Source: a virus. Taken from it: 26,954 nucleotides of DNA. This document shows, in pieces, positions 1 through 26,954 of this stretch (positions are counted from its first letter, which is position 1; the number at the start of each line of letters is the position of its first letter). Location: the IMG/VR virus record IMGVR_UViG_3300032308_001254, positions 1 through 26,954 of that record, one strand, 5' to 3'. The notes beneath the pieces were generated by a model that was given only the letters and a program-made list of their open reading frames with translations, made no database searches and was not told where the DNA came from. Made by a program: the position numbers and the translations under genes.

Positions 1-130
1 CCCCCCCTCAACCCTCCCCCCAACGCCCCCGTGGGGGCAGAAGAGAAGAGAGGAGAAGAGAAGAGAAGAGATACAGAAAACCCCCCCAACCCCCCGCAAG
101 CGGGGGACGCGGGCGAGGCGAAGGCGAAAG
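1..130 (+). repeat. C-rich and GA-rich low-complexity tract, candidate replication origin
   Basis: Bases 1-30 are almost pure C with a few A/T. Bases 25-38 form a GCCCCC/GGGGGC inverted repeat. Bases 39-71 are an unbroken purine run built from AAGAG-like units. Around 90-106 the C-run is followed by CCCCGC-AA-GCGGGG. Across the window ends a further GGGGC-TAA-GCCCC hairpin forms. The tract encodes only a linker between the two domains of the replication protein, the place where lambdoid phages keep their origin. An origin function is inference; no clear iteron set is visible. Confidence 0.45.
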
Positions 131-420
131 AGCCACGCAAGGTCATTCCGGCATACTCCGAGGCGTTCAATCGATTTTGGAACCGGTACCCACGGGTCAG
201 GCGCGTCAACAAGGTGGGCGCTTGGAAGATCTGGGAACATGACGAGATCGAGCGCCCCCAGAAGCCCGGCCAGCGGCTGCTCCTCGACATCGTGATGCAG
301 AGCCTCGAGGACCACATCAAGTGCGACCAGTGGCAAAATGGATTTGTGCCGATGCCATACACCTGGCTGAACCAGAAGCGTTGGAGCAACGACCCACCTA
401 TTAGGGAGAAACCCGAATGA
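1..420 (+). CDS. C-terminal part of O-like replication protein (joins 26598-26954)
   Basis: The reading frame is open from base 1 to the TGA at 418-420. It is the same frame that runs off the right edge (26598-26954 is exactly 119 codons), so the joined protein has 258 residues. This part starts with a Pro/Asn-rich then Glu/Arg/Lys-rich linker (bases 1-130). A compact domain follows with FNRFWNRYP (bases 166-192), AWKIWE and MPYTWLNQKRW. That pattern is typical of the C-terminal domain of phage replication-initiation proteins, which recruit the helicase in lambda O-type systems. The GTG at 31 could be called as a start but has no Shine-Dalgarno (SD) sequence and sits inside the linker, so I read it as internal. 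The next gene overlaps by ATGA. The helicase-loading role is inferred from family and position. Confidence 0.8.
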   Translation, partial: PPLNPPPNAPVGAEEKRGEEKRRDTENPPNPPQAGDAGEAKAKEPRKVIPAYSEAFNRFWNRYPRVRRVNKVGAWKIWEHDEIERPQKPGQRLLLDIVMQSLEDHIKCDQWQNGFVPMPYTWLNQKRWSNDPPIREKPE

Positions 421-917
421 CGACCACCACCAAGACCGCCGGCATCGAACCCGAGGAGGTCACCATCCTCGCGTGCCTGCTCACCGGCGACGAGACCGTC
501 CGAATCTGGGCCCGCCGCATGGGCATCTCGAGCGACATCATGGGCCACGACCGGCTGCGTGAGCTCTACGACTCCCTGCTCATGGCCAGCCAAGTCACCG
601 AATGCCCTCGGCACATGCAGCTCATCGAGCGGCCACTGCCACCCCACTGCGCACCGCATCGCAGCCTGTTCACCGCGACGGAATACTGGAGCGGCATGCC
701 GGGCTTCGAGGCGCGGCTGCAGGCGTTTCAGCGGGCGTGCCGCCTGAGGCTCAAGGCGTGGGCGCCCGAGGTGCTGCGGATCATCGCGGCCAAGATCGAG
801 AAGGGCACCGCCGGCAAGGAGGTGCAGCACGCCGCCGAGCTGCTCGCCTTCGCCGCGTGGACACCTCTATACTCGGGCCCTTGGGTCTACCGCCCAGGCG
901 AGGAGGTGACCAAGTGA
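417..917 (+). CDS. Small helical protein upstream of helicase, possible DnaB-N-like partner
   Basis: This 166-residue protein starts by ATGA overlap with the replication gene and ends by GTGA overlap with the ATPase gene, so it is translationally coupled to both. It looks mostly helical. The first 60 residues (EPEEVTILACLL, then a run ending in ELYDSLLMAS) have the spacing of a DnaB N-terminal domain (short helices ending in a 'YDSLL'-like segment), but similarity is weak by eye. The C-terminus ends GEEVTK, where the codons also supply the SD for the next gene. Context suggests a helicase accessory or loader, or a detached N-terminal helicase domain. I do not recognise the family with confidence. 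Confidence 0.75.
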   Translation: MTTTTKTAGIEPEEVTILACLLTGDETVRIWARRMGISSDIMGHDRLRELYDSLLMASQVTECPRHMQLIERPLPPHCAPHRSLFTATEYWSGMPGFEARLQAFQRACRLRLKAWAPEVLRIIAAKIEKGTAGKEVQHAAELLAFAAWTPLYSGPWVYRPGEEVTK

Positions 918-1903
918 ACGACTACAGCGACTTCCCCGCATGGATCGACCGGGCCGCCATCGAGGCGAGCCTGGCCAAGCACCGGTCGCCGGCCGACATG
1001 ATGACCGGACGCATCGACGGCATCATCGACGGCACCATCAAGCCGGTGGCCACGCCCTGGCCAGCGTTTGACGACATCAAGGCCGCCATGCCGGGCACCC
1101 TCAACGTCGTGTGCGGCGACCCCGGCAGCGCCAAGAGCTTCCTGGTGCTGCAGCTGATGGCTCATGCTCACCGGGCCGGCGTGCCCGTGGCGATGCTCGA
1201 GCTCGAGTGCACCCGTGAGTGGCACCTCATGCGGTACCTCGCGCAGCTCTCAGGCGAACCGCAGGTGACCAGCCTCGACTGGATTGCGGCCAACCCCGAC
1301 CGCATCCGCGGGCTCATGGACCTGCACCGCAGCAGCCTAAACAGCCTGGGCAACGTCATGGACGTGGCTGATGGCAAGCTCCTGACCCACCGCGACGTGC
1401 TGCGATGGGCTCAGGCCAAGCTCGAGCAGGGCGTCAAGGTGCTGGCCATCGACCCCATCACCGCCATGCAGCCGAGCGAGAAGCCGTGGGAAGACGACCA
1501 GAACCTCATCACCGGCCTGCGGCGTCTGCTCGAGCGGCACCACGCCGCCGGGTGGTTGGTGACCCACCCCAAGAAGGGCCGCAAGACCGAGATCTCGATG
1601 GAGGTTCTGGCCGGCGGCGCCGCCATCAGCCGTTTTACCGACGTGGTGCTCTGGCTTGAGCGCCGTGAGCGGCCCGAGACCCACGTGGTCTTCGGCAAGC
1701 GACGGTGGGACGGGACCGAGACCGAGGACCGGCACCAAGACATGGTGCGAGTGCTCAGGGTGCTCAAGTGCCGCGACGGCGTGGCCGCCGGCAGGAATCT
1801 GAGTGTGCGACTGGACCCCAAGAGCCTCACCGTGGAGGCCCTCGGGTGGATCAAGCGGGTGGAGAAGCCCGACAGCCAAGACAACGAGTGCAACCCATTC
1901 TGA
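914..1903 (+). CDS. RecA-fold replicative helicase/ATPase (DnaB/RepA-like, AAA_25 type)
   Basis: The true start is GTG 914 (329 residues), preceded by AGGAGG at 901-906; upstream in-frame codons belong to an overlapping shadow frame. A Walker A motif GDPGSAKS lies at residues 68-75. A Walker B strand VLAID ends at D180, and a sensor-like WLVTHPKKG is centred on H218. The later segment GGAAISRFTDVVLWL matches the late-core region of RepA/DnaB-type ATPases. Its place right after the O-like protein argues for the replicative helicase, the role of lambda P plus host DnaB or of plasmid RepA. It lacks an obvious DnaB N-terminal collar domain; the preceding gene could supply one. The ATPase call is firm and the helicase role is inferred. 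Confidence 0.85.
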   Translation: MNDYSDFPAWIDRAAIEASLAKHRSPADMMTGRIDGIIDGTIKPVATPWPAFDDIKAAMPGTLNVVCGDPGSAKSFLVLQLMAHAHRAGVPVAMLELECTREWHLMRYLAQLSGEPQVTSLDWIAANPDRIRGLMDLHRSSLNSLGNVMDVADGKLLTHRDVLRWAQAKLEQGVKVLAIDPITAMQPSEKPWEDDQNLITGLRRLLERHHAAGWLVTHPKKGRKTEISMEVLAGGAAISRFTDVVLWLERRERPETHVVFGKRRWDGTETEDRHQDMVRVLRVLKCRDGVAAGRNLSVRLDPKSLTVEALGWIKRVEKPDSQDNECNPF

Positions 1904-2701: not shown

Positions 2702-2704
2702 CGC

Positions 2705-2724: not shown

Positions 2725-2981
2725 ATAACGACGAACCGGCGATGAGTCTGCGCGACTACTTCGCGGCCAAGGCAATGCAGGCCATGATCGGAAACTTCCG
2801 CATCGTGAACCATCGGAACCCACTGATTGACGGCGATGTGAGCACGACGGAACCGCACCGCGAGATGATGCTGGACTACAACATCAAGACCGGCGAGTGC
2901 GAGGGTGCCGCCGAGATTGCCGGTGATGCCTATGCCATCGCCGACGCCATGCTCCGCGTGCGGGCGAAGGAGGCCAAGTGA
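2721..2981 (+). CDS. Small phage orphan of the 'LRDYFAAKAMQ' type
   Basis: This 86-residue protein starts at GTG 2721, with AAGGAGG at 2710-2716. The N-terminal SLRDYFAAKAMQAMI helix and C-terminal AYAIADAMLRVR helix flank a loop with HRNPLIDGDV. The combination is a recurring short orphan in tailed-phage accessory regions, as I remember it, with no established role. Met 8 could be an alternative start, but it has no SD and the GTG does. The C-terminus RAKEAK is again the cassette. Confidence that it is a gene is high; its function is unknown. Confidence 0.8.
   Translation: MNNDEPAMSLRDYFAAKAMQAMIGNFRIVNHRNPLIDGDVSTTEPHREMMLDYNIKTGECEGAAEIAGDAYAIADAMLRVRAKEAK
2962..2981 (+). repeat. Start-site cassette copy 3
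   Basis: GGGCGAAGGAGGCCAAGTGA includes the SD AAGGAGG (2967-2973) and the GTG start 2978 overlapping the TGA of the previous gene. The upstream GCG/GTG context is also shared with copy 2. Confidence 0.8.
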
Positions 2982-3556
2982 AAGCCACCAACCTGCTTTC
3001 AACCCCGGCAAGGCCGAATCCTGACACGCCCAGCCACGCCGAGGCCGTGGGGCGGCCCGAGCTGCTTCCAAGGCCGCCAGCCCGTCCTGAGCCGTTTGGC
3101 CGCGACTGGTTCAGGCTCGCCGGCAGGATCGACATGCCCAACACCATGGCCGACTGGCCGACGACGCCGCCGACCAACTGGGGCAAGGACGGCCGCATCA
3201 AAGCCGCCGACTACCGCCTGCGGTACACCTGGACCGAGTGGTGCCGCGAGCGGCCTGCCATCCTGCTCACCCTGATCCTCGAGCGGGTGCAGGAGGCCAG
3301 CCGCGGCCACCTAGTCGAGCGCTCATGGGCCTTCTGCGTGACCGAGCAGAGCAACCTCGAAATCATCAGGCAGGCATGGCAGCACGTGGTTGGCTGCATC
3401 ATGTGCAGGAGCAAGCCCGCCATAGCCGAACGCATGCGGGTGATGTGCAAGGTGTGGTGCCACACCAAGGCCGCCGGCATGAGCTGTTTGGACATCTCGA
3501 GGATGACCAGGACGCCATACACCACCACCACGAAAGCCAAGCATGGACGTGCGTGA
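2978..3556 (+). CDS. Unknown protein with Pro-rich N-terminus and probable C-terminal HTH
   Basis: This 192-residue protein starts at GTG 2978 by GTGA overlap. Residues 1-60 are proline-rich and likely disordered. Residues 70-150 are helical and Trp/Cys-rich (YTWTEWCRERPAILL, then CVTEQSNLEIIRQAW). The last 45 residues contain CVMCK-like cysteines and a helix-turn-helix-like end, SCLDISRMTRTPYTTTTKAKHG, resembling recognition helices that read 'DIARxTGxPYTTV'. That suggests a DNA-binding regulator, perhaps an antiterminator or late activator, but there is no clear family match. The next gene starts inside its last 14 bases. Confidence 0.7.
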   Translation: MKATNLLSTPARPNPDTPSHAEAVGRPELLPRPPARPEPFGRDWFRLAGRIDMPNTMADWPTTPPTNWGKDGRIKAADYRLRYTWTEWCRERPAILLTLILERVQEASRGHLVERSWAFCVTEQSNLEIIRQAWQHVVGCIMCRSKPAIAERMRVMCKVWCHTKAAGMSCLDISRMTRTPYTTTTKAKHGRA

Positions 3557-3719
3557 CGCCGAGTACCACCGGATGCAGCAGGAGCTCAACTACCTGCGCG
3601 ACCAGCTCGCCCGCGTCAAGCTGCAGCTCGCTGGCACCAAGGCGGAGAACGCCGAGTGGCGGCGGATCTTCGTGACCGGCATTTGGATCGACGACCGCAA
3701 ACCACAGGAGAAGCCATGA
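3543..3719 (+). CDS. Short coiled-coil protein (58 aa)
   Basis: ATG 3543 lies inside the end of the previous gene and the TGA (3717-3719) overlaps the next ATG, so this short frame is held in a coupled chain. The sequence MQQELNYLRDQLARVKLQL gives leucines in heptad spacing, as in a short zipper, followed by an AEWRRIF tail. The SD is weak (GAAAGCC), and translation may depend on reinitiation. A dimerising partner of a neighbouring regulator is possible but unsupported. Confidence 0.55.
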   Translation: MDVRDAEYHRMQQELNYLRDQLARVKLQLAGTKAENAEWRRIFVTGIWIDDRKPQEKP

Positions 3720-3913
3720 ACGACCTCGACACCGCCAAGGCCATCATTGTCGCCGCCGGCGTCGGCTGGTACATCGCACCCAGAGAGAACATCAAGCCCT
3801 ACGACTTTGCCGGCGCCATCGCCAACGCCATCGCCGAGGCGCGTGAGCAGGGCCGCCAAGAGGCACGCAAAGAGCCCGCCAAGAAGACCAAGGCCGACAA
3901 GCCGACCGTATAA
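3716..3913 (+). CDS. Small orphan with basic tail (65 aa)
   Basis: Starts at ATG 3716 (ATGA overlap) with CAGGAGAAG just upstream as SD. The first 40 residues have a mixed pattern (AKAIIVAAGVGWYIAP, then FAGAIANAIAEA), and the end is strongly Lys/Arg-rich (QEARKEPAKKTKADKP), suggesting nucleic-acid contact or simple solubility. The 3' end contains the TATAAT of the next gene's putative promoter, and its own TAA is part of that hexamer's neighbourhood. Confidence 0.65.
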   Translation: MNDLDTAKAIIVAAGVGWYIAPRENIKPYDFAGAIANAIAEAREQGRQEARKEPAKKTKADKPTV

Positions 3914-3914
3914 T
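3909..3914 (+). promoter_or_regulatory. Perfect -10 hexamer TATAAT, leaderless promoter for the 3922 gene
   Basis: TATAAT ends seven bases before ATG 3922, so the expected transcription start falls at or next to the start codon. No SD precedes that ATG and no good -35 is seen. AT-rich hexamers are rare in this sequence. Confidence 0.55.
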
Positions 3915-3921
3915 CACATCC

Positions 3922-4131
3922 ATGCCGAAGCACATCCTGAACAACGCACCTCGGCACGTGCAAGCCCTCGTCCGCGAGATGGCCGAGAACAAGGCCATCA
4001 CCAGCAAGCACATCATCGACCGCCTGCCCGGCGTCAACCGTCACCACGTCAAGCTCTGGCTCCGCGGTGACTCGCACCGCCTGGCCGAGGGCACCATCGA
4101 TCGCATCCTTGAGGTGGTGGTCAAGGCCTAG
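3922..4131 (+). CDS. Small HTH DNA-binding protein, candidate regulator
   Basis: 69 residues. The segment ITSKHIIDRLPGVNRHHVKLWL reads as a helix-turn-helix (positions about 26-47). It is followed by LAEGTIDRILEVV, reminiscent of the helix after the recognition helix in LacI or XRE-type domains. The protein is basic and small, like a Cro-type regulator. It has its own TATAAT seven bases upstream and no SD, so it may be made from a leaderless mRNA independently of the upstream chain. It is the best candidate to bind the palindrome at 23058, but that link is speculative. Confidence 0.7.
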   Translation: MPKHILNNAPRHVQALVREMAENKAITSKHIIDRLPGVNRHHVKLWLRGDSHRLAEGTIDRILEVVVKA

Positions 4132-4136
4132 GTACC

Positions 4137-4343
4137 ATGATGGTGATGCAAGTGACCAAGCGAGATCTCGACAAGGCCCGCCAACTGGCCGCCACTTTCA
4201 TGCTCGCGGCCAAGGCCAAGAACATGAGCGAGATGGTCGCCGCGCTCGACGCCGCCGAGCGCAGGGTGGCCGAGACCCTCGCCCTCTGGCGTGAGCTGGG
4301 CAAGCTCAAGAACACACGACCACACCAAGAAGGGGCCGACTGA
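4137..4343 (+). CDS. Small helical protein, unknown (68 aa)
   Basis: The start is ATG 4137, with further starts immediately after it (ATG 4140, GTG, ATG); the sequence MMVMQVTKRDLDKARQL makes the exact start uncertain. It is almost entirely helical and rich in Ala, Lys and Glu (AATFMLAAKAKNMSEM, then ALDAAERRVAETLALW). Its TGA shares one base with the ATG of the nuclease gene, so the two are coupled. It could be a small partner of that nuclease. No family is recognised. Confidence 0.6.
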   Translation: MMVMQVTKRDLDKARQLAATFMLAAKAKNMSEMVAALDAAERRVAETLALWRELGKLKNTRPHQEGAD

Positions 4344-4702
4344 TGGGATACGCCGAGAACGCCGTCACCAAGTGCGTCCTCGGCGCCATCACGCTCCACA
4401 GCGCAGGAAGCCACCCGGCAGTCTTCACGCGCGTGCAGTCGGGCATGATCCGGGTGGGCGACCGCCTCATCCGCATGGCCGCGGCCGGCACCGCCGACTT
4501 TATTGGCGTCTACCGCGGACGAGCCGTGGCCCTGGAGGTCAAGACTTCCAAGGGCAGGCAGGCCGACAGCCAGCGAGAATGGGAACAGGCATGGACCGCC
4601 GCCGGCGGCGTCTACCGCGTCGTCAGGTCCGCCGCAGACACCCTCGAGCTGTTCCAAGAGCTCGACCAGGAGGCCGAGGGTGCCCTACATCCGCCGAGGT
4701 GA
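4343..4702 (+). CDS. VRR-NUC type nuclease
   Basis: 119 residues. After a helical N-terminus the core reads GTADF (residues 49-53), a strand, then LEVKT with E65 and K67, and then GRQADSQREWEQAWTAAGG. This is the D...ExK...Q layout of the PDDEXK VRR-NUC family (PF08774), used for structure-specific DNA cleavage in repair and phage replication or maturation. The length is normal for a stand-alone phage VRR-NUC. D52, E65 and K67 are the likely metal and catalytic residues. It lies in the accessory block next to small orphans. A Holliday-junction resolvase or restriction-like role is possible; specificity cannot be told. Confidence 0.85.
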   Translation: MGYAENAVTKCVLGAITLHSAGSHPAVFTRVQSGMIRVGDRLIRMAAAGTADFIGVYRGRAVALEVKTSKGRQADSQREWEQAWTAAGGVYRVVRSAADTLELFQELDQEAEGALHPPR

Positions 4703-5015
4703 GAAGGCCACCCCATGGGTGCCGTGGGCCGACTGGTTCAACAGCGACCAAGACAAGGGCCAGCGTCGGCATCAAACACGACTCAAGGCAGACCGTAAAA
4801 GCGTTAAGCGTGCCCTCGCCATGGAGCTGGGCCGGCGTGTGGTCTGCACCTGGAAGCGAATCGGCCAGACCGAACGCCTCGAGATTCGCGGCGTCCTAGT
4901 CCGCGTGTACCCCTACATCCTGCCGGGCATCGTCGTCTGCGTCGTCAAGCTCTCGACCAAGAAGACCATGCGCGTGGAATCATCGCGCGTCCGCTATGAG
5001 GTGAATACCCCATGA
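4680..5015 (+). CDS. Basic orphan protein (111 aa)
   Basis: Starts at GTG 4680 with AGGAGG at 4668-4673, giving a 23-base overlap with the nuclease gene; upstream in-frame codons are shadow. The N-terminus contains PWVPWADWFN, followed by a basic stretch (QRRHQTRLKADRKSVKRAL) and then alternating beta-like segments (RVVCTWKRIG, then GVLVRVYPYILPGIVVCVVKL). It may be a small nucleic-acid-binding or structural protein. I do not recognise it. It ends by ATGA overlap with the membrane protein gene. Confidence 0.65.
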   Translation: MPYIRRGEKATPWVPWADWFNSDQDKGQRRHQTRLKADRKSVKRALAMELGRRVVCTWKRIGQTERLEIRGVLVRVYPYILPGIVVCVVKLSTKKTMRVESSRVRYEVNTP

Positions 5016-5290
5016 TCTGGCACGCCATTCTTGCCGTCGAGCTCATCGCGCTAGCCATCGCCATGGTGTGGTGGAGAGCACGCAGCCGAGTACACTGTTC
5101 CCATGCTCAGGTACGCCATTCTCGCCATCGTGCTCGCGTCCGCCTCAGGATGCAACGGCAAGCCCAGCGCAGCGGCAACTGGCACCGGCCTACCTGCGGC
5201 CGTGGCCACCACCAGGGAAGCCGCCAAGGCCGTGCAGGCCGCAGCCGCCAAGATCGAGACCGCCAACACCGAGGTGGCCAAGGTGGCTGA
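5012..5290 (+). CDS. Single-TM protein with basic tail, overlapping the lipoprotein gene
   Basis: ATG 5012 overlaps the previous TGA (ATGA). Residues 3-21 (WHAILAVELIALAIAMVWW) form one membrane segment followed by RARSR. The remaining 60 residues are Arg/His/Gln-rich and lie in the +1 frame over the first 188 bases of the 5103 lipoprotein gene. Either a real overlapping pair exists, as in Rz/Rz1 lysis genes, or only the first part matters and the tail is a shadow. A holin-like or lysis-regulatory role is possible from size, topology and position. The basic tail composition is what a shadow frame in this GC-rich DNA would give, so confidence is moderate. Confidence 0.45.
   Translation: MIWHAILAVELIALAIAMVWWRARSRVHCSHAQVRHSRHRARVRLRMQRQAQRSGNWHRPTCGRGHHQGSRQGRAGRSRQDRDRQHRGGQGG
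5091..5096 (+). promoter_or_regulatory. -10 like TACACT, leaderless promoter for the 5103 gene
   Basis: TACACT is followed by exactly six bases and then ATG 5103, which puts the expected +1 on the A of the start codon. There is no SD before 5103 and no recognisable -35. It matches the arrangement before 6212. Confidence 0.55.
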
Positions 5291-5849
5291 CCTTGCCGAC
5301 CAAGCCACCACCATCGCCGCCGGCGTGGCTGAGCTGCGGACCACCGGCGGCACCCTCGAGGCCACCAGCGTCACCCTCGGGGCCGACGCCAAGAAGGTCG
5401 CCGAGCTGCAGGACCAGCTGGCCGCCGCGCAGAAGCAGGTGGCCGACCTCAAGGCCAACAAGGACAGCTGGCTAAGCCGCCTGCTCGGCATCGCAGCCGT
5501 GGCCGGCCTTGGCCTAGCGGTGGTCTCGATGGTCTGGCTGCGGAACGGGCAGGGGGCCCTTACCGGCATCGCCGTCTTCGGCGCCGCCATCGCCGGCCAA
5601 TGGATCTTGGAGTACCGCATCGTGATCGGCATGGCCGCGCTGGGTCTGGCCGCGGCGTGGGTGGTCTACGCCCTGCTCCGCGAGCGGAAGGCCTCGAGCG
5701 AGGTGGTCCGCCTAGTCGAGACCTTCAAGCCCAGGCTCGACGCCGAGAGCTTCAAGACCGTGGCCAACGCCATCCAGAGCAAGAGCACCAAGCGGGTGGT
5801 CGATGCCATCCAGCGAACCTTGGGAATCAACAAGGGCACCGCAGCATGA
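5103..5849 (+). CDS. Lipoprotein with coiled coil and C-terminal TM segments, spanin-like candidate
   Basis: 248 residues. The N-terminus MLRYAILAIVLASASGC is a short lipoprotein signal with C17 as the lipid-anchor cysteine. Residues 30-118 are Ala/Glu/Lys/Thr-rich helices with coiled-coil spacing (AAAKIETANTEVAKVADLA, then VAELQDQLAAAQKQVADLK). Hydrophobic segments follow at about 121-142, 150-169 and 173-193, then a charged tail of 55 residues. An outer-membrane lipid anchor plus a periplasmic coiled coil plus an inner-membrane anchor is the plan of unimolecular spanins (T1 gp11), although those have one TM segment. The gene has a leaderless-type -10. Alternatives are a superinfection-exclusion or holin-like membrane protein. 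Confidence 0.8.
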   Translation: MLRYAILAIVLASASGCNGKPSAAATGTGLPAAVATTREAAKAVQAAAAKIETANTEVAKVADLADQATTIAAGVAELRTTGGTLEATSVTLGADAKKVAELQDQLAAAQKQVADLKANKDSWLSRLLGIAAVAGLGLAVVSMVWLRNGQGALTGIAVFGAAIAGQWILEYRIVIGMAALGLAAAWVVYALLRERKASSEVVRLVETFKPRLDAESFKTVANAIQSKSTKRVVDAIQRTLGINKGTAA

Positions 5850-6199
5850 GCGCAGAGACCGCCGTCGTAGACAGCACGCTTATGAGCCTGGCACGCGAGA
5901 GCATCGTGCTCATCACCGTGCTCATCATCACCTTCGTGGCGTGGTTTATCTGGTCCAAGATCGTCCACCCGTTCCAGCTCAAGCAGGCCGAGATCTCGGT
6001 GGCGACCGCCGAGGCCCTAGCCGCCATCCAGCAGACCACGCAAGCCGTGACCCTGACCTCCAAAGAGGTAACCGAGCAGGCCAAGCAGCTGGCCCAGCTC
6101 GCCGGCAACCTCAACGACCTCATGCAAGCCATGTTGGCCGGGGCACCATGCCAACGCGGCGGACACTGGCCGAGCAACGGGCCTAACAGCAGACCTTGA
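5846..6199 (+). CDS. Membrane-anchored coiled-coil protein, holin/i-spanin-like candidate
   Basis: 117 residues, starting at ATG 5846 by ATGA overlap with the lipoprotein gene. A single membrane helix (about residues 17-39, ESIVLITVLIITFVAWFIW) is followed by a long amphipathic helix rich in Ala, Gln and Thr (AEISVATAEALAAIQQTTQ, then KEVTEQAKQLAQLAGNLND), and a short Cys/Gly/Pro tail. The topology equals that of inner-membrane spanin subunits (Rz) and of some class III holins. With 5012 and 5103 it forms a compact membrane gene set directly before packaging genes. No sequence family is recognised; the lysis role is inferred from architecture. Confidence 0.75.
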   Translation: MSAETAVVDSTLMSLARESIVLITVLIITFVAWFIWSKIVHPFQLKQAEISVATAEALAAIQQTTQAVTLTSKEVTEQAKQLAQLAGNLNDLMQAMLAGAPCQRGGHWPSNGPNSRP

Positions 6200-6205
6200 T
6201 ACACT
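6200..6205 (+). promoter_or_regulatory. -10 like TACACT, leaderless promoter for the 6212 gene
   Basis: TACACT is followed by six bases and ATG 6212, the same geometry as at 5091. There is no SD. It opens the packaging module. Confidence 0.55.
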
Positions 6206-6211
6206 GCTGGC

Positions 6212-6580
6212 ATGAAGAAGCTGGGCAGTGAATCCGAGGGGGCAAGGGGGGAGACCGAGCTGGTGGCCAAGATCGTCGATGGCCAGCACACTAGGGCCAA
6301 CGTGAAGGCGGTGATCGCGGCGCTGGACGACTTTGGCGTCCGAGGCGTGCCGGTGCCCAAGAAGATGGCCGAGGCCATCCCGCGGGTGGTGGTCAAGCTG
6401 CTCGAGAACGCCAGCCCGAGGATCAAGGCCGCGGGCGTCAAGCTCGCCCTGGCGGCCATGAAGCACAACCTCGAGGTGCACCAGCACGCCGACAAGATGG
6501 CCAGGCTTGACGCTGGCCAGGCGACCGAACGCCATGAGATTCAGCTGTACGGCAAGGACGCGCCAGTGGAGGCCGTGTGA
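6212..6580 (+). CDS. Putative terminase small subunit
   Basis: 122 residues lying immediately before TerL with a GTGA overlap, the usual place for TerS. The sequence is mostly helical: KAVIAALDDFGVRGVPVPKK, then RVVVKLLENASPRIKAAGVK and an AMKHNLEVHQHADKMARLD helix. The 'SPRIKAAGVKLALAAMKHN' plus leading basic segment resembles the short TerS-like proteins that precede TerL in many environmental siphoviruses, without a classical HTH that I can see. It would bind the packaging site and start packaging with TerL. The leaderless-type TACACT element lies in the 12-base gap after the previous gene. Confidence 0.6.
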   Translation: MKKLGSESEGARGETELVAKIVDGQHTRANVKAVIAALDDFGVRGVPVPKKMAEAIPRVVVKLLENASPRIKAAGVKLALAAMKHNLEVHQHADKMARLDAGQATERHEIQLYGKDAPVEAV

Positions 6581-7911
6581 GCTACACGCCTTACGGCGGC
6601 ATCCGCGGCGTGTGGCACAGCAGGGCCACCGAGGTCTTGGCGCCGGGGCCCGCGGGCACGGGCAAGACCCGCGGCATCCTCGAGAAGGTCCACCTCTACC
6701 TGCTCAAGTACCCCGGCACTAGGGCGCTCGTCTGCCGCAAGACGCGGGCCTCGATGACCGAGAGCGTGCTGGTGACGTTCGAGGCCAAGGTGGTGCGGGC
6801 AGGCTGCAACCTCAACAACCAGAGCCGGCGGACCAGGACCGGGTACGACTACGAGAACGGCAGCGCCATGGTGGTGGGCGGGCTCGACAACCCCGACCGC
6901 ATCATGAGCACCGAGTACGACATCATCGCCGTGTTCGAGGCCACCGAGTGCTCCGAGGACGACTGGGAGAAGCTCACGACCCGCCTCAGGAACGGCCGCG
7001 GCCCGTACCACCAGATCATCGCCGACTGCAACCCCGCGGCACCGTCGCATTGGCTCAAGCGTCGGGCCGACCGCGGGCAAATGGAAGTGCACCAGTGCCA
7101 GCACCAGGACAACCCGGTGCTCTGGAACCGCGACCTAGGCCAGTGGACAGAAGCCGGCAACAAGTACCTGGCGACTCTGCAGAGCCTGACCGGGCACCGC
7201 CGCGCTCGCCTGCTCGACGGCCGGTGGTCTGCGGCCGAGGGCCTCGTTTACCCCGAGTTCAACCCGGCCACCCACGTGGTGAACGCCATGCCGCCAGGGT
7301 GGGAGAAGTGGTCCAAGATCCGCAGCATCGACTTTGGATACGTCCACCCGTTCGTCTGCCAGTGGTGGGCCATCGACCCCGACAGCCGCCTGTACCTCTA
7401 CCGCGAGATCTACCACAGCCGGCGGACGGTGGCCGACCACGCCGCCATCATCAACCGTTACAGCGACGGCGAGACCTACGTGGCGACCGTGACCGACCAC
7501 GACGCCGAGGACCGTGCCACGCTCGCGGCCCACGGCATCCAGACAGTGGCGGCCAACAAGGAACACCGCACCGGGCGTGACGCCGTGCATGAGCGACTGC
7601 GTGTGCAGGGCGACGGCCGGCCACGCTTGTACCTGCTCGCCAGCGCCACGCTCGAGACTGACCGCGAGCTGTACCAAGCCAAGAAGCCCACCAGCACGCT
7701 GGCCGAGTTCGACTGCTACCTGTACCCACCAGGACAGGACGGCAAGGCTCCCAAGGAGGAGCCGATCAAGCTGTACGACGACGGCCTCGACGCCATGCGG
7801 TACGCCATCATGCACCTCGACGGGCCCAAGGCTTCAATGGGCGCGTGGGTGGGGCGTGTCGCCGACGCGGGTACACTGCACGAGGCGACCGACACACGCG
7901 GATGGGCATGA
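6577..7911 (+). CDS. terL: Terminase large subunit
   Basis: 444 residues from GTG 6577. The ATPase half has Walker A GPAGTGKT (residues 24-31) and Walker B IIAVFE with E121. The nuclease half has SIDFGY (D252), TDHDAED (D307/D309) and a C-terminal DDGLDAMRY with D405, the three acidic sites of the RNase H-like terminase nuclease. It drives ATP-dependent packaging of DNA into the prohead and cuts the concatemer. The length fits the family. The 3' end contains the CGGGTACACTG element at 7868-7878, shortly before the portal start. The protein ends by ATGA overlap with the portal gene. Confidence 0.95.
   Translation: MSYTPYGGIRGVWHSRATEVLAPGPAGTGKTRGILEKVHLYLLKYPGTRALVCRKTRASMTESVLVTFEAKVVRAGCNLNNQSRRTRTGYDYENGSAMVVGGLDNPDRIMSTEYDIIAVFEATECSEDDWEKLTTRLRNGRGPYHQIIADCNPAAPSHWLKRRADRGQMEVHQCQHQDNPVLWNRDLGQWTEAGNKYLATLQSLTGHRRARLLDGRWSAAEGLVYPEFNPATHVVNAMPPGWEKWSKIRSIDFGYVHPFVCQWWAIDPDSRLYLYREIYHSRRTVADHAAIINRYSDGETYVATVTDHDAEDRATLAAHGIQTVAANKEHRTGRDAVHERLRVQGDGRPRLYLLASATLETDRELYQAKKPTSTLAEFDCYLYPPGQDGKAPKEEPIKLYDDGLDAMRYAIMHLDGPKASMGAWVGRVADAGTLHEATDTRGWA
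7868..7878 (+). promoter_or_regulatory. CGGGTACACTG element, copy 1 (before portal gene)
   Basis: The 11-mer includes the -10 like TACACT (7872-7877) and is preceded by GACG. It lies 30 bases before the ATGA at 7908, inside the end of terL. The identical 11-mer recurs at 10833, 14886 and 20798. Confidence 0.5.
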
Positions 7912-10142
7912 CCACCATGGCAAAGCGAACCACCAAGAAGGCGATTGAACCCGACCAGCGCGAGATTCCCGGCGCGTGGGTGTCGGCATCGCTCATCCCG
8001 GGCGAGTCATCGACCAGTTACAACAACCAGAACACGGGCCGCGACTACGAGCTGGTCACGCGCGGCATCACGGGCACGGCCTACCGGGCGGCGACGATCA
8101 ACGCCACGGTGCTGTCGGGCCAGACGCTGCGGCTGTTCCGCAAGACCGGCACGGGCATCGCCAAGGCCGGCCGCAAAGTGGCCGAGAAGCGGATGGTGAA
8201 GCACGCAACCAACCGCGGGCGGGTCAAATCGCTCATCGGCAAGGCGGCCACATACGCCAACCGTGCCGGCGACCAGGTGGAGGAGGTGCTAGACCACCCG
8301 GTGCTCGAGCTGCTGCAGAACCCCGATCCGATCTACACCGGAAGCATGTGGCTGCACATGCTGTTCTGGTTCAAGGAGGTGTCGGGCCGCTCGTACCTTT
8401 ACGTGGGAGAAAAGGTCAACGGCGTGCCGGTGTCGGCCTACATCCTGCCCTCGCAGTTCGCCTGGCCGATGTTGAGCGACACGGGCTTCATCGCCGGGTA
8501 CTACTACGGGCGGAACCGGGCCTCGCCCATGCGGATCGCGGCCGAAGACGTGGTGTACCTGCGGCAGCACGGCAGCCCGGTGCACCCCGCGGGCGGCATG
8601 TCGTGGCTGTACAGCGTCATGGCAGAGACCGACATGGAAGCCGCGGCCCTCCAGGCTGAGGCGCAGCGGTGGCTCAACGGCGGCATGCCGGGCATGGTGT
8701 TCAAGGCGGCCCCGACCACGACCGACGCCCAGATGCGGCAGATCAACGCCCACCTCAACCAGAGCACACGCGGCGTCGGCAAGGCCGGGTCGATCCTGTT
8801 GCTCCGCGACACGGAGCTGGTGCAGTACGCCACCAAGCCCCACGAGATGCAGTACGTGGAGGGCATCACCGCGACTGAGAAGCGGATCTACGACGCCGCA
8901 GGCATCCCCGAGCCGATCTACCGGCTCAACAGCGCCAACCTCGCCTCGGCGACGGTGGCGAACGCCCAGTACATGCGGTACACCATCGCGCCGCGGCTCG
9001 CCACGCTGGCCGGCGAGCTGACCGAGCTCCTGCTGCCTCACTACGGCGTCGAGCCAGGGGACATGTGGTTTTGCTTCGACGACCCGACGCAAGACGACCA
9101 GATCGCCCTGGCGGCCGAGCTGCGGGCGGCCGAGGCGCAGGGCATCATCACGCCCAACGAGTACCGCGCGGTGATCGACCTTGAGGCGCTGCCCGACGAG
9201 CAGAACCTGCTGCGGTACCGCCAGACCGAGGCGCCGGCCCCGATGGGCATCTTCGGCGCGGGCCCGCCGGCGAAGGCCGAGGACATGCCCAGCGAGGACG
9301 TGGGCGAGGCGTCGGTGGACGTCGAGCATCCGACCCCCGAAGACGCCCCCGAAGACGCCCCCGAAGACGCCCCCGAAGTGGAGGGCAAGTCGATGGCCAC
9401 CAAGCCCCGCGTGCCACGCAAGTACAAGGCCACCGCCACCGTGTGGGATGAAGAGACCGGGACGCCGGCGGTGAGCGCTGCGGCCTACCGCCGGTTCGTA
9501 AGCCAGCTGACCGGCTGGTACGTGACGGCCGTGCCCACGATGATCGACGACACCGCCAACGTGATCGCGCCCAGCCAGGAGGCCATGGCCGATCTCACGG
9601 CCATCACCGAGCGCTTCATCGAGAGCGCCATGATTACGGGCGGTCTGCAGGGCCTCGCCCAGCTCGGCGAGACCAAGGAGAGCTTCTCCACGGCCAATGA
9701 ACCGGCCATGGCGTTCATCCGCAACCAAGGCCTTGCCTTGTCCACCAGCGTGCCCGAGACCCTCAAGCCTCACATCCAGGCGGCCATCGAGCGGCAGCTG
9801 GCCGCCGGCACCACCGTGGCCAACATGCGTGACGCCATCCGCGAGGTGGCCCCCGACCTCACTGAGTGGCAGGCCGTTCGCATCGCCAGGACCGAGACCC
9901 TGCGGGCCTACTGCGAGGGCCAGCGGCAGGCATGGGTGCAACGCGGCGTGCAGAACAAGCAGTGGATCAACAGCGGCGGGCCGTGCGCCGTCTGCGACTC
10001 GATCACCGAGGCCTACCCCGGTGAGGTGCCGATCAACCAAGCTTTTAGCGTGAGCGCCGGCAGCTGGCAGGCGCCGCCCGCCCACCCAAACTGCCGGTGC
10101 GACCTGCTGCCCGGCGTGGAGTACGTTGACGATGAAGACTGA
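7908..10142 (+). CDS. Portal protein fused to MuF-like minor head protein
   Basis: About 744 residues from ATG 7908 (ATGA overlap); ATG 7902 and 7917 are alternatives. Residues about 20-440 are an HK97-type portal: NTGRDYELVTRG, VLELLQNPDP, GSMWLHMLFWFKEVSGRSYL, then EKRIYDAAGIPEPIYRL. A spacer with three exact EDAP repeats (from residue 477) leads to a SPP1 gp7/MuF-type domain with RIARTETLRAYCEGQRQAW, CAVCDS (about 692) and the signature AHPNCRCDL near 722. The portal forms the dodecameric DNA channel; MuF proteins are minor head or ejected proteins usually encoded separately. No toxin domain follows the MuF end. The gene overlaps the protease start by 11 bases. Confidence 0.9.
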   Translation: MTTMAKRTTKKAIEPDQREIPGAWVSASLIPGESSTSYNNQNTGRDYELVTRGITGTAYRAATINATVLSGQTLRLFRKTGTGIAKAGRKVAEKRMVKHATNRGRVKSLIGKAATYANRAGDQVEEVLDHPVLELLQNPDPIYTGSMWLHMLFWFKEVSGRSYLYVGEKVNGVPVSAYILPSQFAWPMLSDTGFIAGYYYGRNRASPMRIAAEDVVYLRQHGSPVHPAGGMSWLYSVMAETDMEAAALQAEAQRWLNGGMPGMVFKAAPTTTDAQMRQINAHLNQSTRGVGKAGSILLLRDTELVQYATKPHEMQYVEGITATEKRIYDAAGIPEPIYRLNSANLASATVANAQYMRYTIAPRLATLAGELTELLLPHYGVEPGDMWFCFDDPTQDDQIALAAELRAAEAQGIITPNEYRAVIDLEALPDEQNLLRYRQTEAPAPMGIFGAGPPAKAEDMPSEDVGEASVDVEHPTPEDAPEDAPEDAPEVEGKSMATKPRVPRKYKATATVWDEETGTPAVSAAAYRRFVSQLTGWYVTAVPTMIDDTANVIAPSQEAMADLTAITERFIESAMITGGLQGLAQLGETKESFSTANEPAMAFIRNQGLALSTSVPETLKPHIQAAIERQLAAGTTVANMRDAIREVAPDLTEWQAVRIARTETLRAYCEGQRQAWVQRGVQNKQWINSGGPCAVCDSITEAYPGEVPINQAFSVSAGSWQAPPAHPNCRCDLLPGVEYVDDED
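9336..9377 (+). repeat. 12-base tandem repeat encoding PEDA at the portal-MuF junction
   Basis: CCCGAAGACGCC occurs three times exactly (9336-9371), then CCCGAA. It encodes an acidic, Pro-rich hinge between the two domains of the fusion and could vary in copy number. Confidence 0.85.
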
Positions 10143-15022: not shown

Positions 15023-15865
15023 ATGGCACTTGCATACCCGCTCACGTCTGAGACCGGCAACCTCACCAGCATCGCGGCCAGCGGCGACCTGCTGTATCTG
15101 TTCGGCACCGCGCTGCGTATGACCACGGATCTCGCCACCATCAAGATCGAATCGAACGAGATCGACGTGACGCAGGCCACAGGCTCGGCCATCAACATGA
15201 TGGAGAAGTTCCACGGCCTGCGAACGGGCACCGTGGACTTCTCGGGCATCTTCCCCAGGACCACCCCGCCCTTGGGCATCTCGGCCTTGGTCACGTATGC
15301 CAGCGGCTACGTGGCTTACATGAACGCCCTGACCATCGACATCACATGGCCGGAGATCGAGATCACGGAGACCACCGGCGCGGCCACCGGCTGGAGGAAG
15401 TGGATGCCCGGCGGCATCGGCAGCTGGAGCGGCAGCTACACCTGCAAGGCCGACGTGAACGACGCGCCGAGCCTGCCGACCAGCGGCGCCTCGGCCACGG
15501 CCAGCTTCAAGCTGGTGGAGGCTGGCACCGATCCGACTCTTTCAGGCAACATCGGCATCCCGAGTCTGAGCCAGAGGGTGCGGCTCGGCGACTTCTCCGA
15601 GCTCAGCTACGCCTTCAACGGCTCCGGCAACCTCAACCAGACCAACGGTGGCCTGTTGGCGGCGTCTGGAGACATCGCCAAGCCCACCTGGAACATCGCC
15701 GGCACATCGGCCACCCCTGACCAGACGTGCCGCCTGACGGTCGGTGGCAGCCGCAAGTGGGAGTTCCCAGCCTTCTGGACCAAGCTCAGCCTGAGCTGGA
15801 AGATGGACGATGTAGTTCGTGTGACCGGCACCCTGCGAATCGCCAGCACCGCCACGGCGTCCTAA
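15023..15865 (+). CDS. Major tail (tube) protein
   Basis: 280 residues. An all-beta pattern includes IKIESNEIDVTQATG, MMEKFHGLRTGTVDFSG, WKWMPGG-like aromatic loops, GIGSWSGSYTCKADVN and a second half with ASFKLVEAG and WTKLSLSWKMDDVVRV. Two beta-sandwich-like repeats in a 280-residue protein between tail terminator and tape measure fit a siphovirus major tail protein. The gap from the terminator gene is 10 bases without a strong SD. The family was not recognised by signature; the call rests on size, composition and order. Confidence 0.7.
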   Translation: MALAYPLTSETGNLTSIAASGDLLYLFGTALRMTTDLATIKIESNEIDVTQATGSAINMMEKFHGLRTGTVDFSGIFPRTTPPLGISALVTYASGYVAYMNALTIDITWPEIEITETTGAATGWRKWMPGGIGSWSGSYTCKADVNDAPSLPTSGASATASFKLVEAGTDPTLSGNIGIPSLSQRVRLGDFSELSYAFNGSGNLNQTNGGLLAASGDIAKPTWNIAGTSATPDQTCRLTVGGSRKWEFPAFWTKLSLSWKMDDVVRVTGTLRIASTATAS

Positions 15866-15877: not shown

Positions 15878-17032
15878 GTGGCAGAGCCTATCGAAATTGG
15901 CGTCAAGATGCGGGCGGACACGTCGGCCATACCTGGCGACGTGGCCAAGGCCAAGGCGCAAGTGGACGCCGCAGCTGCCGACACGGCGGCCAAGGCGACC
16001 GAGGCGACGAATAAGCAGACGGCCGCAACCAGTGCCCTCGGCGAGAAACTCAAGCAGGTCAAGAAGCAATACGGCGAGCAGATCGAGGTGGTGCAGGGCC
16101 TCATCGGCAAGATCGCTGCCATCGCCGGCATCGCCACCATCGCCTTCACTGTCGGTCAGGCGATCAAGAAATACATCGTGGACCTGCTCGAGGATGGTGC
16201 CGAGAAGGCCAAGGACTTCAGCGCCAGCCTCAACTTCAACGACCCGGCCAAGTCTGCCGAGGCGTTGTCGGCCGAGATTCAGCGTGTTGAAGGCGAACTG
16301 GCGGCCACCAAGGAGGAGTACGACAACGTAAAGGCCGCCGGCTTCGGTGGCATCGCCGAGCTCATCGCCGGGCAACGAAAGCAGGCCCAGCTCGAGGAGA
16401 CCCTGCGCGAGCTACGGACACGGCGGAACATCAACGAGAAGGCCGCCGAAACCAAGGCCAACAAGGAAGCAGCCGAGAAGAAAGCCGAGGCCGAAAAGAA
16501 GGCCGCCGAGAAGGCCGCTAATGACGTCGCCAGCATCACCGAGCAGGCCCGCCTCGATGCCATGACCGAGGAGCAGCGGATTGTCGCCCAGGCCGAGGCC
16601 AAGATCGCGGAGCTCACCAAGGCTTACAACGCTCAGACCAAAGAAGAGCGAATCGCCACCAACCAATCCACCGAGGACGCCATCGCCTCGATCCGCCGCA
16701 AGACCCAAGAGGAGGTCGAGAAGAACCGGCAGGAAGCAGCAGACGCCGCGGCGAAGGCGGCCGAGGAGGAGCGGAAGAAGGAAGAGGAATGGCACGACAA
16801 GCTCCGCGACTGGTACCGCGAGCAGGAGGAGGCCCAACGCAAGCAGGCCGAGGCCGCAGCGAAAGCCCGTGACGCTTGGGTGCAAAGCCTCAAGGCCATC
16901 CGATCCGAGATCAACGCCACCTTCGGCGCCGAGACCGCCAACAGCATCACCCAGTTCGGTCAACAGATCCAAGGCCTCGGCATGGCGACCAGCGCCAACA
17001 TGAACCGCATCGTGGTGGAGGGCGTCGGATGA
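15878..17032 (+). CDS. Short tape-measure-like protein
   Basis: 384 residues from GTG 15878 with TGGAGG five bases upstream. It starts with IEIGVKMRADTSAIPGDVAK, a typical tape-measure N-terminus. One hydrophobic segment lies at about 84-105 (GKIAAIAGIATIAFTVGQAI). A long, highly charged Ala/Glu/Lys coiled coil runs from about 120 to 345 and a Gln/Asn/Thr-rich end follows. It lies right after the tail-tube gene without the usual two-frame assembly chaperone. By the known 0.15 nm per residue rule the tail would be only about 55-60 nm long. Alternatively it is a tail-tip coiled-coil protein. It ends by ATGA overlap. Confidence 0.75.
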   Translation: MAEPIEIGVKMRADTSAIPGDVAKAKAQVDAAAADTAAKATEATNKQTAATSALGEKLKQVKKQYGEQIEVVQGLIGKIAAIAGIATIAFTVGQAIKKYIVDLLEDGAEKAKDFSASLNFNDPAKSAEALSAEIQRVEGELAATKEEYDNVKAAGFGGIAELIAGQRKQAQLEETLRELRTRRNINEKAAETKANKEAAEKKAEAEKKAAEKAANDVASITEQARLDAMTEEQRIVAQAEAKIAELTKAYNAQTKEERIATNQSTEDAIASIRRKTQEEVEKNRQEAADAAAKAAEEERKKEEEWHDKLRDWYREQEEAQRKQAEAAAKARDAWVQSLKAIRSEINATFGAETANSITQFGQQIQGLGMATSANMNRIVVEGVG

Positions 17033-18248: not shown

Positions 18249-20444
<2,196 letters not shown>

Positions 20445-24193: not shown

Positions 24194-24961
24194 ATGTCCG
24201 ACGACATCGACAGCATCTTGGCGGCAGCCGCGCCCAACGAGCGGCACGCCCAACGCACCGCACCCGCACCAGTGACCGGCACGGTGCTCGAGACTAGGGC
24301 AAACGTCACCCTCGGGCCTCGCGGCATGACCACCGACACCCTCGACGGCCTGCAGCGAATGGCCGTGGTGCAGTACGAGGGCGGGGCGTACAAGCCCGCC
24401 TTCTTCGACGGGTGCGAGACCCACCGGCAGCGGCTGGCCCGCATCATCCTCGCCCTCGAGAAGGGCATGGCCGTGGGCTTGGCGGCGAGCGAGGTGCCCG
24501 ACGCCATCAGCTACATCCGCGGCAAGCTGACCATTTGGGGGGACGCCATGGTCGCGCTGGCCAAGCGGCACCCTGACTGCATCGGCATCATCACCAAGCA
24601 TGAGGGCGAGGGCGACAACCGGGCGGCGATGGTGACCGCCAGCCGAAAGGGCCAGCCCGACGTGGTGGTGCGGTTCAGCGTGGCCGACGCCAAGCGTGCC
24701 GGGCTCTGGGGTCAGCGCGGCCCCTGGTCGAGCTACCCCGACCGCATGTTGCAGCAGCGGGCCCGCGGGTTCGCCATTCGCGATCAGTTCCCCGACGCTC
24801 TCATGGGGCTCATCAGCACCGAGGAGGTGCTCGACTACCAGGACGAGCCCGCCAGGGCCGCGCCGCGGCCTCAGGAGATGCCGGTGGCCGCCAAGCCGGT
24901 AACGGAGGCCCCCACCGCAGCCAAGGCTCTGGAGGCCATCAGGAGGGCTTCCAAGCCCTGA
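24194..24961 (+). CDS. recT: RecT-family single-strand annealing protein
   Basis: 255 residues with the SD GCAGGAG. Family features are LEKGMAVGLAASEVPDAISYI, LTIWGDAMVALAKRHPDC, RFSVADAKRAGLWGQRGPW and the strongly typical SYPDRMLQQRARGFAIRDQF followed by DALMGLISTEEV (RecT, PF03837). The C-terminal 45 residues are Pro/Ala-rich, probably an SSB-contact tail. It anneals the strands made by the preceding exonuclease and so serves phage recombination or concatemer formation. It is the last gene of the operon; a strong hairpin follows at 24982-25005. Confidence 0.92.
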   Translation: MSDDIDSILAAAAPNERHAQRTAPAPVTGTVLETRANVTLGPRGMTTDTLDGLQRMAVVQYEGGAYKPAFFDGCETHRQRLARIILALEKGMAVGLAASEVPDAISYIRGKLTIWGDAMVALAKRHPDCIGIITKHEGEGDNRAAMVTASRKGQPDVVVRFSVADAKRAGLWGQRGPWSSYPDRMLQQRARGFAIRDQFPDALMGLISTEEVLDYQDEPARAAPRPQEMPVAAKPVTEAPTAAKALEAIRRASKP

Positions 24962-24981
24962 CAGTCTCTCTCCTCTCCTTG

Positions 24982-25005
24982 GCCGGCGGCAGAAGCGCCG
25001 CTGGC
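24982..25005 (+). terminator. Hairpin after recT, probable terminator
   Basis: GCCGGCGGC (24982-24990) pairs with GCCGCTGGC (24997-25005), nine pairs with one G-U and a six-base loop, extendable by two wobble pairs. TGAGTTTGG follows. It closes the recombination operon; the U-run is short. Confidence 0.5.
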
Positions 25006-25130
25006 TGAGTTTGGCCCATAGGAGCAGGTGGCCTGGGTGATCGGCCCCGAAAACAGCTCTAGGTGCATGCGGCTGGAACCCCCACCAGTGGCAACTCCCC
25101 CCGGCGTAAGGGCGTCACCGTTCTCGCGTC

Positions 25131-25160
25131 GGGGCCTGCGGCTTAACAGCCGCGGGCCCC
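25131..25160 (+). other. 13-bp hairpin upstream of the ParB-like gene
   Basis: GGGGCC-T-GCGGCT, loop TAAC, AGCCGC-G-GGCCCC: thirteen continuous pairs, one of them T-G. It ends 52 bases before the ATG. A second hairpin, CCGGCC-GCGT-GGCCGG (25166-25181), follows with AGTTCCCCCC and a C/U-rich tail. Confidence 0.75.
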
Positions 25161-25212
25161 ATTCACCGGCCGCGTGGCCGGAGTTCCCCCCTTTCTCTCA
25201 CGGAGAAGACCC

Positions 25213-26061
25213 ATGACCGACGCAGTTAAGAAGCTGCTGATGCTGATCGGCAGCAGCACCAAGTCCGAGGGCGAGCAGCTGCTCGCTTGGACGCCCGAGA
25301 TGGCCGAGTACGTCCTGGCCAACCACAACAAGCACAAAGACCAGCGGCGCATGAGCGAGGCCGAAGCCCAGAAGCTTGCCCGCGTGCAGAAGGCCGGGGC
25401 GTGGCGCGAGAACCTGCGGACCACCTGGATCGTCTTCGACTGGGACCGCAACATCATCAACGGGCAGCACACCCTGCGGGCCATCGTGCTCTCGGGGAAG
25501 ACCCTCAAGATCCGCACCGCGTGGGGTGACAACCCCGCCGACATCGCGCTCTACGACGCCTTTCGGCCGCGCACGGTGGCCTACATCGCCGGATGCCTTG
25601 GCGCCAATCACACCACAACCCGCGCGGCGTTTACTCGCCTCAAGCTCATCATCGACGGCGGCATTGCGTCTCCAAAGACGACCGGCCAGGAGGTGGTGAA
25701 GACCACCGTGCACGACAAGCTGGTGGACGGCATCGTCACCGCCATCGCCCAAGACAGGCGCCACCGCGGCAACGGCGTTCCGCCAGCGGTGGCGGCCTTC
25801 GCCCTGTGGCGCATCGCCAAGGTTTATGGCGTCGAGCCGGTGCTCGCCTGGTGGGATAGGACGATGGCTGGCGAGGAGCTGCGTGCCGGCGACCCGCGGC
25901 TGCAGCTGGTCCGGTGGTTTAGGTCTCACCCGACCAACCTCGACGGCGACCGCGTGACCGGCGTGGTGGCGATCTGCAAGGCGTGGGCGATGACCAGGAC
26001 GAAGAGCACCGCCACGCTCCGCGTCATGAAGGGCGAGGCCATGCCCAAGATCGAGCCCTGA
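25213..26061 (+). CDS. ParB-like 'NGQH' domain protein
   Basis: 282 residues from ATG 25213 (SD CGGAGAAG). The N-terminal region has LLAWTPEMAEYVLANHNKH, then WIVFDWDRNIINGQHTLRAI with N83-G-Q-H86, the motif of the ParB/Srx-type nucleotide-binding domain seen in many phage proteins ('INGQHRL'). A helical second half follows (VKTTVHDKLVDGIVTAIAQ, AFALWRIAKVYGVEPVLAWW). Such proteins are common in phages of high-GC bacteria, where their exact role is unknown: regulation, DNA binding or CTP-dependent switching are possible. The structured leader upstream suggests its expression is controlled. Confidence 0.8.
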   Translation: MTDAVKKLLMLIGSSTKSEGEQLLAWTPEMAEYVLANHNKHKDQRRMSEAEAQKLARVQKAGAWRENLRTTWIVFDWDRNIINGQHTLRAIVLSGKTLKIRTAWGDNPADIALYDAFRPRTVAYIAGCLGANHTTTRAAFTRLKLIIDGGIASPKTTGQEVVKTTVHDKLVDGIVTAIAQDRRHRGNGVPPAVAAFALWRIAKVYGVEPVLAWWDRTMAGEELRAGDPRLQLVRWFRSHPTNLDGDRVTGVVAICKAWAMTRTKSTATLRVMKGEAMPKIEP

Positions 26062-26187: not shown

Positions 26188-26436
26188 ATGACCGACAACG
26201 AATCCGACGCCGAAGAGAGGTACTGCCGCGTGGTGCAGACCAAGGACCGCGAGTACTCCGCCGGCTGGCGGGCCTACGTCAACGGGCAGCCGTGCCCTGG
26301 CACACCGGTAGCCGCCGATGGCTGGCGTGAAGCCGAGTACGCCGACCAGCAGCTGGGCCGCGACATCCGGTGGTCTGCCGGCGAAAGCGTGGTGGTGCAG
26401 ATCGGCGCCGGGCGGCAGGTCAAGGCGATGGAATAG
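26188..26436 (+). CDS. Small orphan protein (82 aa)
   Basis: Starts at ATG 26188 behind CAGGAG (spacing 5). It is acidic at the N-terminus (DNESDAEERYCRVV), then KDREYSAGWRAYVNGQP with PGTPVAADGWREAEYADQQ and a final strand SVVVQIGAG. A small mixed alpha/beta fold is likely. I do not recognise it. It is the last gene before the replication promoter, 4 bases from the -35, and follows the ParB-like gene, with which it may share regulation. Confidence 0.65.
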   Translation: MTDNESDAEERYCRVVQTKDREYSAGWRAYVNGQPCPGTPVAADGWREAEYADQQLGRDIRWSAGESVVVQIGAGRQVKAME

Positions 26437-26439
26437 GCC

Positions 26440-26468
26440 TTGCGTTATCGGCCGCGTGCTGGTATGCT
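26440..26468 (+). promoter_or_regulatory. Sigma70-type promoter of the replication module
   Basis: TTGCGT (26440-26445), a 17-base spacer, then TATGCT (26463-26468). It is the best -35/-10 pair I can find in the window. Expected start of transcription is near 26475, about 123 bases before the replication protein ATG. Confidence 0.6.
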
Positions 26469-26493
26469 GTGGGTGCTGATCCTTTGACCTGAC

Positions 26494-26601
26494 ATGCGAA
26501 CCCTCATCGACATTCCAACCCCCGGCCGTGCCTATGGCGTGTTCGCATGCGCCACGGGATCAGCCACGGCTCGGGGTTGGGGTGTCGGGAATCAACGATG
26601 A
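26494..26601 (+). CDS. 35-codon leader ORF coupled to the replication gene
   Basis: ATG 26494 to TGA 26599-26601 gives a 35-residue peptide (MRTLIDIPTPGRAYGVFACA, then TGSATARGWGVGNQR). Its stop overlaps the replication ATG as ATGA, the coupling found throughout this genome. It begins about 20 bases after the predicted transcription start and lacks a strong SD. The replication gene also has no SD of its own, so its translation may depend on ribosomes finishing this ORF. The peptide itself may have no function. An alternative is that this is simply an untranslated leader. Confidence 0.45.
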   Translation: MRTLIDIPTPGRAYGVFACATGSATARGWGVGNQR

Positions 26602-26954
26602 CATCGGAATATCACTGGTTCAAGCTCCACAGAACCGAGTGGACGCAGACCACCAAGCTGCTGTCAGCAGCCGAGCGTGGCGTCCTGATGGAGCTGTTTG
26701 TGCAGGCATGGGGCATGACCAAGCCTGGCGTTTTCATCAAGCACAATGGGCCTGCACACAGCCACGACGAGCTGGTGGTGCTTGCGTCTAACTCAAGCGA
26801 CAAGAAGACCGTAGTGGCCAAGGCCATCGACAAGATCATTGCCGAAGGTCTGCTCGAGGTGTCCGATGGCGTCTACGTGATGCCTCTGGTGGTCAAAGAA
26901 CACGGGTCGAACGTCAAGAACACCGAATGGGGACGCATGGGTGGGGCTAAGCCC
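26598..26954 (+). CDS. N-terminal part of O-like replication protein (continues at base 1)
   Basis: 119 codons from ATG 26598 to the window edge with no stop. The protein begins TSEYHWFKLHRTEWTQTTKL, then LLSAAERGVLMELFVQAW, an extended loop with HNGPAHSHDEL, KTVVAKAIDKIIAEGLLEV and YVMPLVVKEHG. This is the winged-helix 'DUF1376-like/replisome-organiser' N-terminal domain that binds origin DNA. The last residues GRMGGAKP lead in frame into the Pro-rich start of the window. The two pieces give the usual two-domain replication protein with a low-complexity linker. No SD precedes it; coupling to the 26494 ORF is likely. Confidence 0.85.
   Translation, partial: MTSEYHWFKLHRTEWTQTTKLLSAAERGVLMELFVQAWGMTKPGVFIKHNGPAHSHDELVVLASNSSDKKTVVAKAIDKIIAEGLLEVSDGVYVMPLVVKEHGSNVKNTEWGRMGGAKP

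Follow-up and report, generated by a model that had tools for sequence, protein, structure and literature searches.

The edges of a linear phage record probably adjoin within a single replication-initiation gene of a circular genome map

Does a viral record that carries no terminal repeat, and whose two edges both lie within open reading frames, represent a whole genome? The window analysed here is the entire IMG/VR record IMGVR_UViG_3300032308_001254 (26,954 bases, genome 66% GC). At its right edge, 119 stop-free codons extend from the ATG at 26598-26600 up to 26954, and at its left edge frame 1 is open from base 1 until the TGA at 418-420. The initial annotation proposed that these two open frames encode one protein across a circular junction, and joining the edges directly does produce an ORF of 258 aa. 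The edge letters are ...GGGGCTAAGCCC on the right and CCCCCCCTCAACC... on the left, the ends thus reading ...GCCC and CCCCCCC..., and no exact terminal repeat or end overlap was detected between the window's own ends, meaning that the window itself is not a DTR contig. We conclude, with a probability of about 0.92, that the window holds practically the whole genome of a tailed phage with a circular map, that its edges are adjacent or at most a few bases apart in one 258-codon gene, and that it is linear because the assembler stopped at a C-rich low-complexity linker. The features on which this conclusion and the following analysis are based are listed in Table 1.

Table 1. Coordinates of the features discussed in the window (positions 1 to 26,954).
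Feature	Coordinates	Strand	Evidence
N-terminal half of a replication-initiation/primosomal-type protein, 119 codons, cut by the right edge	26598..26954	+	Open frame, weak profile matches
C-terminal half of the same protein, 139 codons and stop, cut by the left edge	1..420	+	PHROG matches
C-run/purine-repeat linker at the break	1..115	+	Sequence, run census, same-start contig, relatives
Conserved 166-aa protein after the initiator gene	417..917	+	73% identical in G004
DnaB-like replicative helicase/AAA ATPase	914..1903	+	PHROG 19, E 2.5e-18; PF13481
Terminase large subunit	6577..7911	+	PHROG 2, E 7e-31; PF04466 Terminase_3
Promoter-like site TTGCGT-17-TATGCT upstream of the initiator gene	26440..26468	+	Read from sequence
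Conserved long hairpin (82-nt) directly before the initiator ATG	26507..26588	+	Folding z, shared pairs

The continuity of this region could be followed in a closed relative, IMGVR_UViG_3300042294_001965 (termed G004), which displays an exact 127-bp terminal repeat and corresponds to a circle of 30,569 bp. This map is read as a circle because the end repeat has the length of one of the metaSPAdes k-mers (PMC10914622), and DTRs matching k-mer lengths arise, according to the CheckV authors, from the assembly of circular templates (PMC8116208). The window is colinear with G004 all round in circular order, save for a rearranged cassette region at 2178-2981 (~2.2-3.0 kb), and window blocks 24856-26046, 26435-26586 and 47-1991 correspond respectively to 149-1383, 2498-2646 and 3076-5048 of the relative. 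Measured across the join, the span of 414 bp in the window compares with 429 bp in G004, and the size difference between the two genomes resides mainly in indels elsewhere (portal, fibre, HNH region and 23.1-23.3 kb). A relative in which the two protein halves are separate genes had been named in advance as evidence against the junction. We observed the opposite, since four relatives carry a single continuous ORF: the initiator gene encodes 257 aa in G002, G003, G004 and G005, to be compared with the 258 aa of the joined window protein. G002, G003 and G005 are near-identical to G004 where they overlap, and the relatives' contigs begin and end elsewhere on the circle (G002 starting near window position 16,700 and G005 near 22,970). 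The join is not covered in the terminase relatives G006-G009. Among the viral contigs searched, none carried the right-edge 23-mer, the sole match to the left edge was a contig beginning at the identical base, and no contig of this same phage crossed the join.

Why, then, does the record break at this particular base? The linker at the break exhibits a C7 run at the edge, AGAAGAG repeats at ~40-72 and more C6-C7 runs. Four of the eight C/G runs of at least 6 in the genome fall in bases 1-95, with the AGAAGAG repeats between them, and a matching linker is uninterrupted in the relatives. The C-rich setting that had been noticed at the break is therefore real. The GGGGC-TAA-GCCCC hairpin that had been offered as a cause of the break is not borne out, as this element has 5 bp and the last 60 bases fold at z = -0.51, within chance for their composition. 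The first base of the window is also that of another contig, IMGVR_UViG_3300033571_015567, whose 9,328 bp match window 1-9328 at 99.9% identity. Since a chance break would not recur, the break is systematic rather than accidental, unless both contigs derive from the same reads, and the shared start base taken together with the concentration of C/G runs indicates that the stop is sequence-specific. We infer that a short-read or assembler failure at the C-rich stretch is the simplest cause. Where repeats cause a break, assemblers leave a k-mer-long overlap (PMC10914622); the window ends without self-overlap, which points to missing reads and not to a branching graph. A literature search on poly-G coverage loss yielded nothing usable. 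In the proposed scenario, the assembler could not pass the C-rich linker within the initiator gene and would have left a circular genome linear.

The identical first base of the two contigs, together with the lack of a terminal repeat in the window, would also be expected if a linear virion genome really ended at these edges (cos-type or fixed terminus). We consider this main rival explanation unlikely and give it a very small chance, because such an end would split a replication gene midway, with the terminase gene 6.6 kb away, and because four relatives, one of them circular, run through the place. The terminase gene lies so far from the join that the latter does not adjoin the packaging genes, and the break falls at the most C-rich spot of the genome, which accounts for a repeated stop.

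The agreement of the reading frames says little when taken by itself. Each of the three frames stays open from base 1 (for 139, 97 and 79 codons, respectively), and among random plus-strand stretches of 139 codons 24% lack a stop, as expected in a genome of such GC content, so that in-frame joining is weak evidence, worth little more than its one-in-three chance. It does limit the length of the C-run. The frame is preserved by a direct join (10 Cs) or when three Cs are merged (7 Cs), and it is broken when one or two Cs are merged or when one or two are added; the real run length would consequently be 7, 10 or another member of that series.

More weight is carried by the protein families matched by the two halves. 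The N-terminal half matches PHROG 3992 primosomal protein weakly (E 0.0033) and PF07120 DUF1376 at an E-value of 2e-4, below the gathering cut-off, and the C-terminal half matches PHROG 9474/270 replication initiation protein as well as PHROG 9327 primosomal protein. As had been suggested, the joined 258-residue protein was compared with phage replication families, and it matched PHROG 9327 from end to end (residues 3-251 to 2-242 of 276) with 49.0 bits. The C-terminal half alone scored 30.1 bits against the same profile, and six fusions carrying a shuffled N-terminal half scored 28.5-29.3 bits and were aligned only from residue 138 or later. The N-terminal half thus contributes ~20 bits to the match, in the expected order and register. 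This profile test is independent of the comparison with the relatives, because the N-terminal half of G004 falls in another PHROG (2509/9474). Neither viral contigs nor the phage collection yielded a relative of the window's N-terminal half.

The circular relative that is colinear through the join and the family profile that needs both halves together indicate that a single gene was broken, with little or nothing missing, in agreement with the initial proposal that the ends adjoin and that one gene is cut by the record edges. Against strict adjacency, the N-terminal domain has no similarity to that of the relative and the spacing is compatible with a small linker gap. That the window is a partial genome, with a stretch missing between its edges and an in-frame join due to luck, can draw on the frame chance and on the frequency of open frames at this GC content, but it is the least probable reading in view of the matching spans and protein lengths, of the profile spanning both halves and of a size difference located mainly elsewhere.

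The break is therefore best described as an ordinary assembly feature in a phage of known kind, and a record without terminal repeat becomes usable as an essentially whole genome, so that its gene order and most statements on its gene content stand. In practical terms, a circular relative combined with a shuffled-half profile test can close a contig that lacks a terminal repeat.

The encoded initiator would carry a DUF1376-like domain, presumed to be DNA-binding, at its N terminus and an initiator domain at its C terminus, the two being connected by a low-complexity linker rich in proline. By analogy with the families matched, binding of the phage origin may fall to the N-terminal domain and helicase recruitment to the C-terminal part. 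The standard winged-helix N-terminal domain that had been assumed at the outset was not confirmed: in addition to the DUF1376 score mentioned above, the single-sequence structure model of this half reached a pLDDT of 50, too poor to use, and gave no significant fold match. Hits of the joined protein to solved structures (cytochrome b-245 light chain) were rejected as compositional, since they cover a region containing the proline-rich linker of low complexity.

Close downstream of the initiator gene, the helicase is 90% identical in G004, and the 166-aa protein encoded between the two has no PHROG or Pfam match. Other recognised genes encode the terminase, a portal with a head-morphogenesis domain, a protease, the major capsid protein, a tail completion protein, three types of head-tail connectors, a collagen-repeat fibre, an exonuclease and a RecT-like protein. 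The statement that all siphovirus modules occur once is not borne out: head, connector, terminase and fibre genes are recognisable, but no tape-measure or tail-tube profile was matched, and for the ORFs at 15023-15865 and 15878-17032 the profile searches gave no hit. As judged from sequence, the siphovirus label would rest on the connector and tail-completion genes. The absences that had been called informative are so only in part. No integrase, recombinase or endolysin profile was matched when ~36 proteins were scanned, but many of them have no match at all and could include a divergent lysis gene, which leaves the absent endolysin only weakly informative. The absence of an integrase says somewhat more, as profiles usually detect this enzyme. 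At 5103-6199, two adjacent frames that match no family combine membrane segments with what looks like a lipoprotein-type signal (LASASGC), and are candidate lysis (spanin/holin) genes. The fibre gene (18252-20444) contains a long collagen-like GPTGAT repeat at ~19051-19492, and the region past the repeat is unlike that of the relative. A host search with helicase and terminase alignments in 84,980 genomes gave no match.

In the region where colinearity is interrupted, a gene-boundary element, GCGAAGGAGGCCAAGTGAA, is repeated at 2177-2209, 2702-2734 and 2959-2991. The element comprises the end of one gene, a Shine-Dalgarno sequence and the overlapping GTG start of the next. These elements flank small cassettes whose order differs in G004, where they are also duplicated in part, and which are rearranged in both G006 and G008. 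Furthermore, the seven differences between the window and 3300033571_015567 fall at 2954-2999. Given this reordering in relatives and the position of the differences between near-identical contigs, the boundary elements at 2177-2991 look like a cassette-shuffling site. The same region contains a 48-aa frame (2196-2342) made almost entirely of G-D/N/Y repeats (GDGDGNGDGYGNG...), with a DNA-level match in the relatives.

Upstream of the initiator gene, the leader shares 79% DNA identity with that of G004 over ~150 bp. The spacing of the promoter-like site is retained in the relative (TTGTGT-17-TACCAT), and the leader hairpin folds better than shuffled sequences both in the window (z = -3.45) and in the relative (z = -3.34). 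It has 27 base pairs in common between the two, of which 2 are changed on both sides, a weak covariation as two distinct sequences are compared. No match was obtained for the hairpin in Rfam or for the leader DNA in cultured phages, and among viral contigs the leader motif was found only in the four known relatives. It is a doubtful, though conceivable, proposition that this hairpin, kept while the N-terminal domain was exchanged, acts as a cis-acting element of an undescribed type (replication origin or RNA leader control) and that, in addition, the synthesis of the initiator is tuned by slippage at the in-frame C-run where the two domains meet.

Several known systems can be compared with the window. 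Among cultured phages, the best matches to its TerL are those of Thermobifida phage P1312 and of Streptomyces phages, with 38-46% identity; the genomes of these phages measure 47-68 kb, and the window leader has no DNA match in any cultured phage. With regard to PHROG 9327/270/9474, the window initiator aligns end to end with the first of these families, but its score marks it as divergent, and it carries the C-run/purine-repeat linker. G004 and the near-identical 3300042305_001591, 3300020571_000039 and 3300049595_002431 are closer. Outside the rearranged cassette region their gene order follows that of the window, their DNA identity to it is mostly 66-91% when taken block by block, and they share with it the leader hairpin, the linker and the C-terminal domain of the initiator. 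They differ from the window by an N-terminal initiator domain that looks unrelated (PHROG 2509/9474 type), by longer portal and fibre regions, by a duplicated cassette and by an extra HNH-like frame, and, unlike the window, G004 is assembled as a closed circle. In G004, the HNH-like frame (L013/L014, reversed coordinates ~1400-2093) is located between the counterparts of window 26061 and 26164 and is absent from the window.

The initiators of the window and G004 share the purine-repeat linker and a C-terminal part that is 55% identical in amino acids to that of the continuous gene in all four relatives, whereas their N-terminal domains show no similarity. Two Gordonia phages display the same pattern, their initiators sharing a C-terminal region next to N-terminal domains without detectable sequence similarity, which was attributed to recombination (PMC10684548, Fig. 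5E). The likeness has its limits, since the C-terminal part of the window protein is not near-identical to its counterpart and its N-terminal domain is not a confirmed winged helix. On the basis of these alignments, the apparent N-terminal domain swap is a known kind of event with a published precedent, and the window would add one more case of phage initiator domain exchange, in which leader and linker were left in place.
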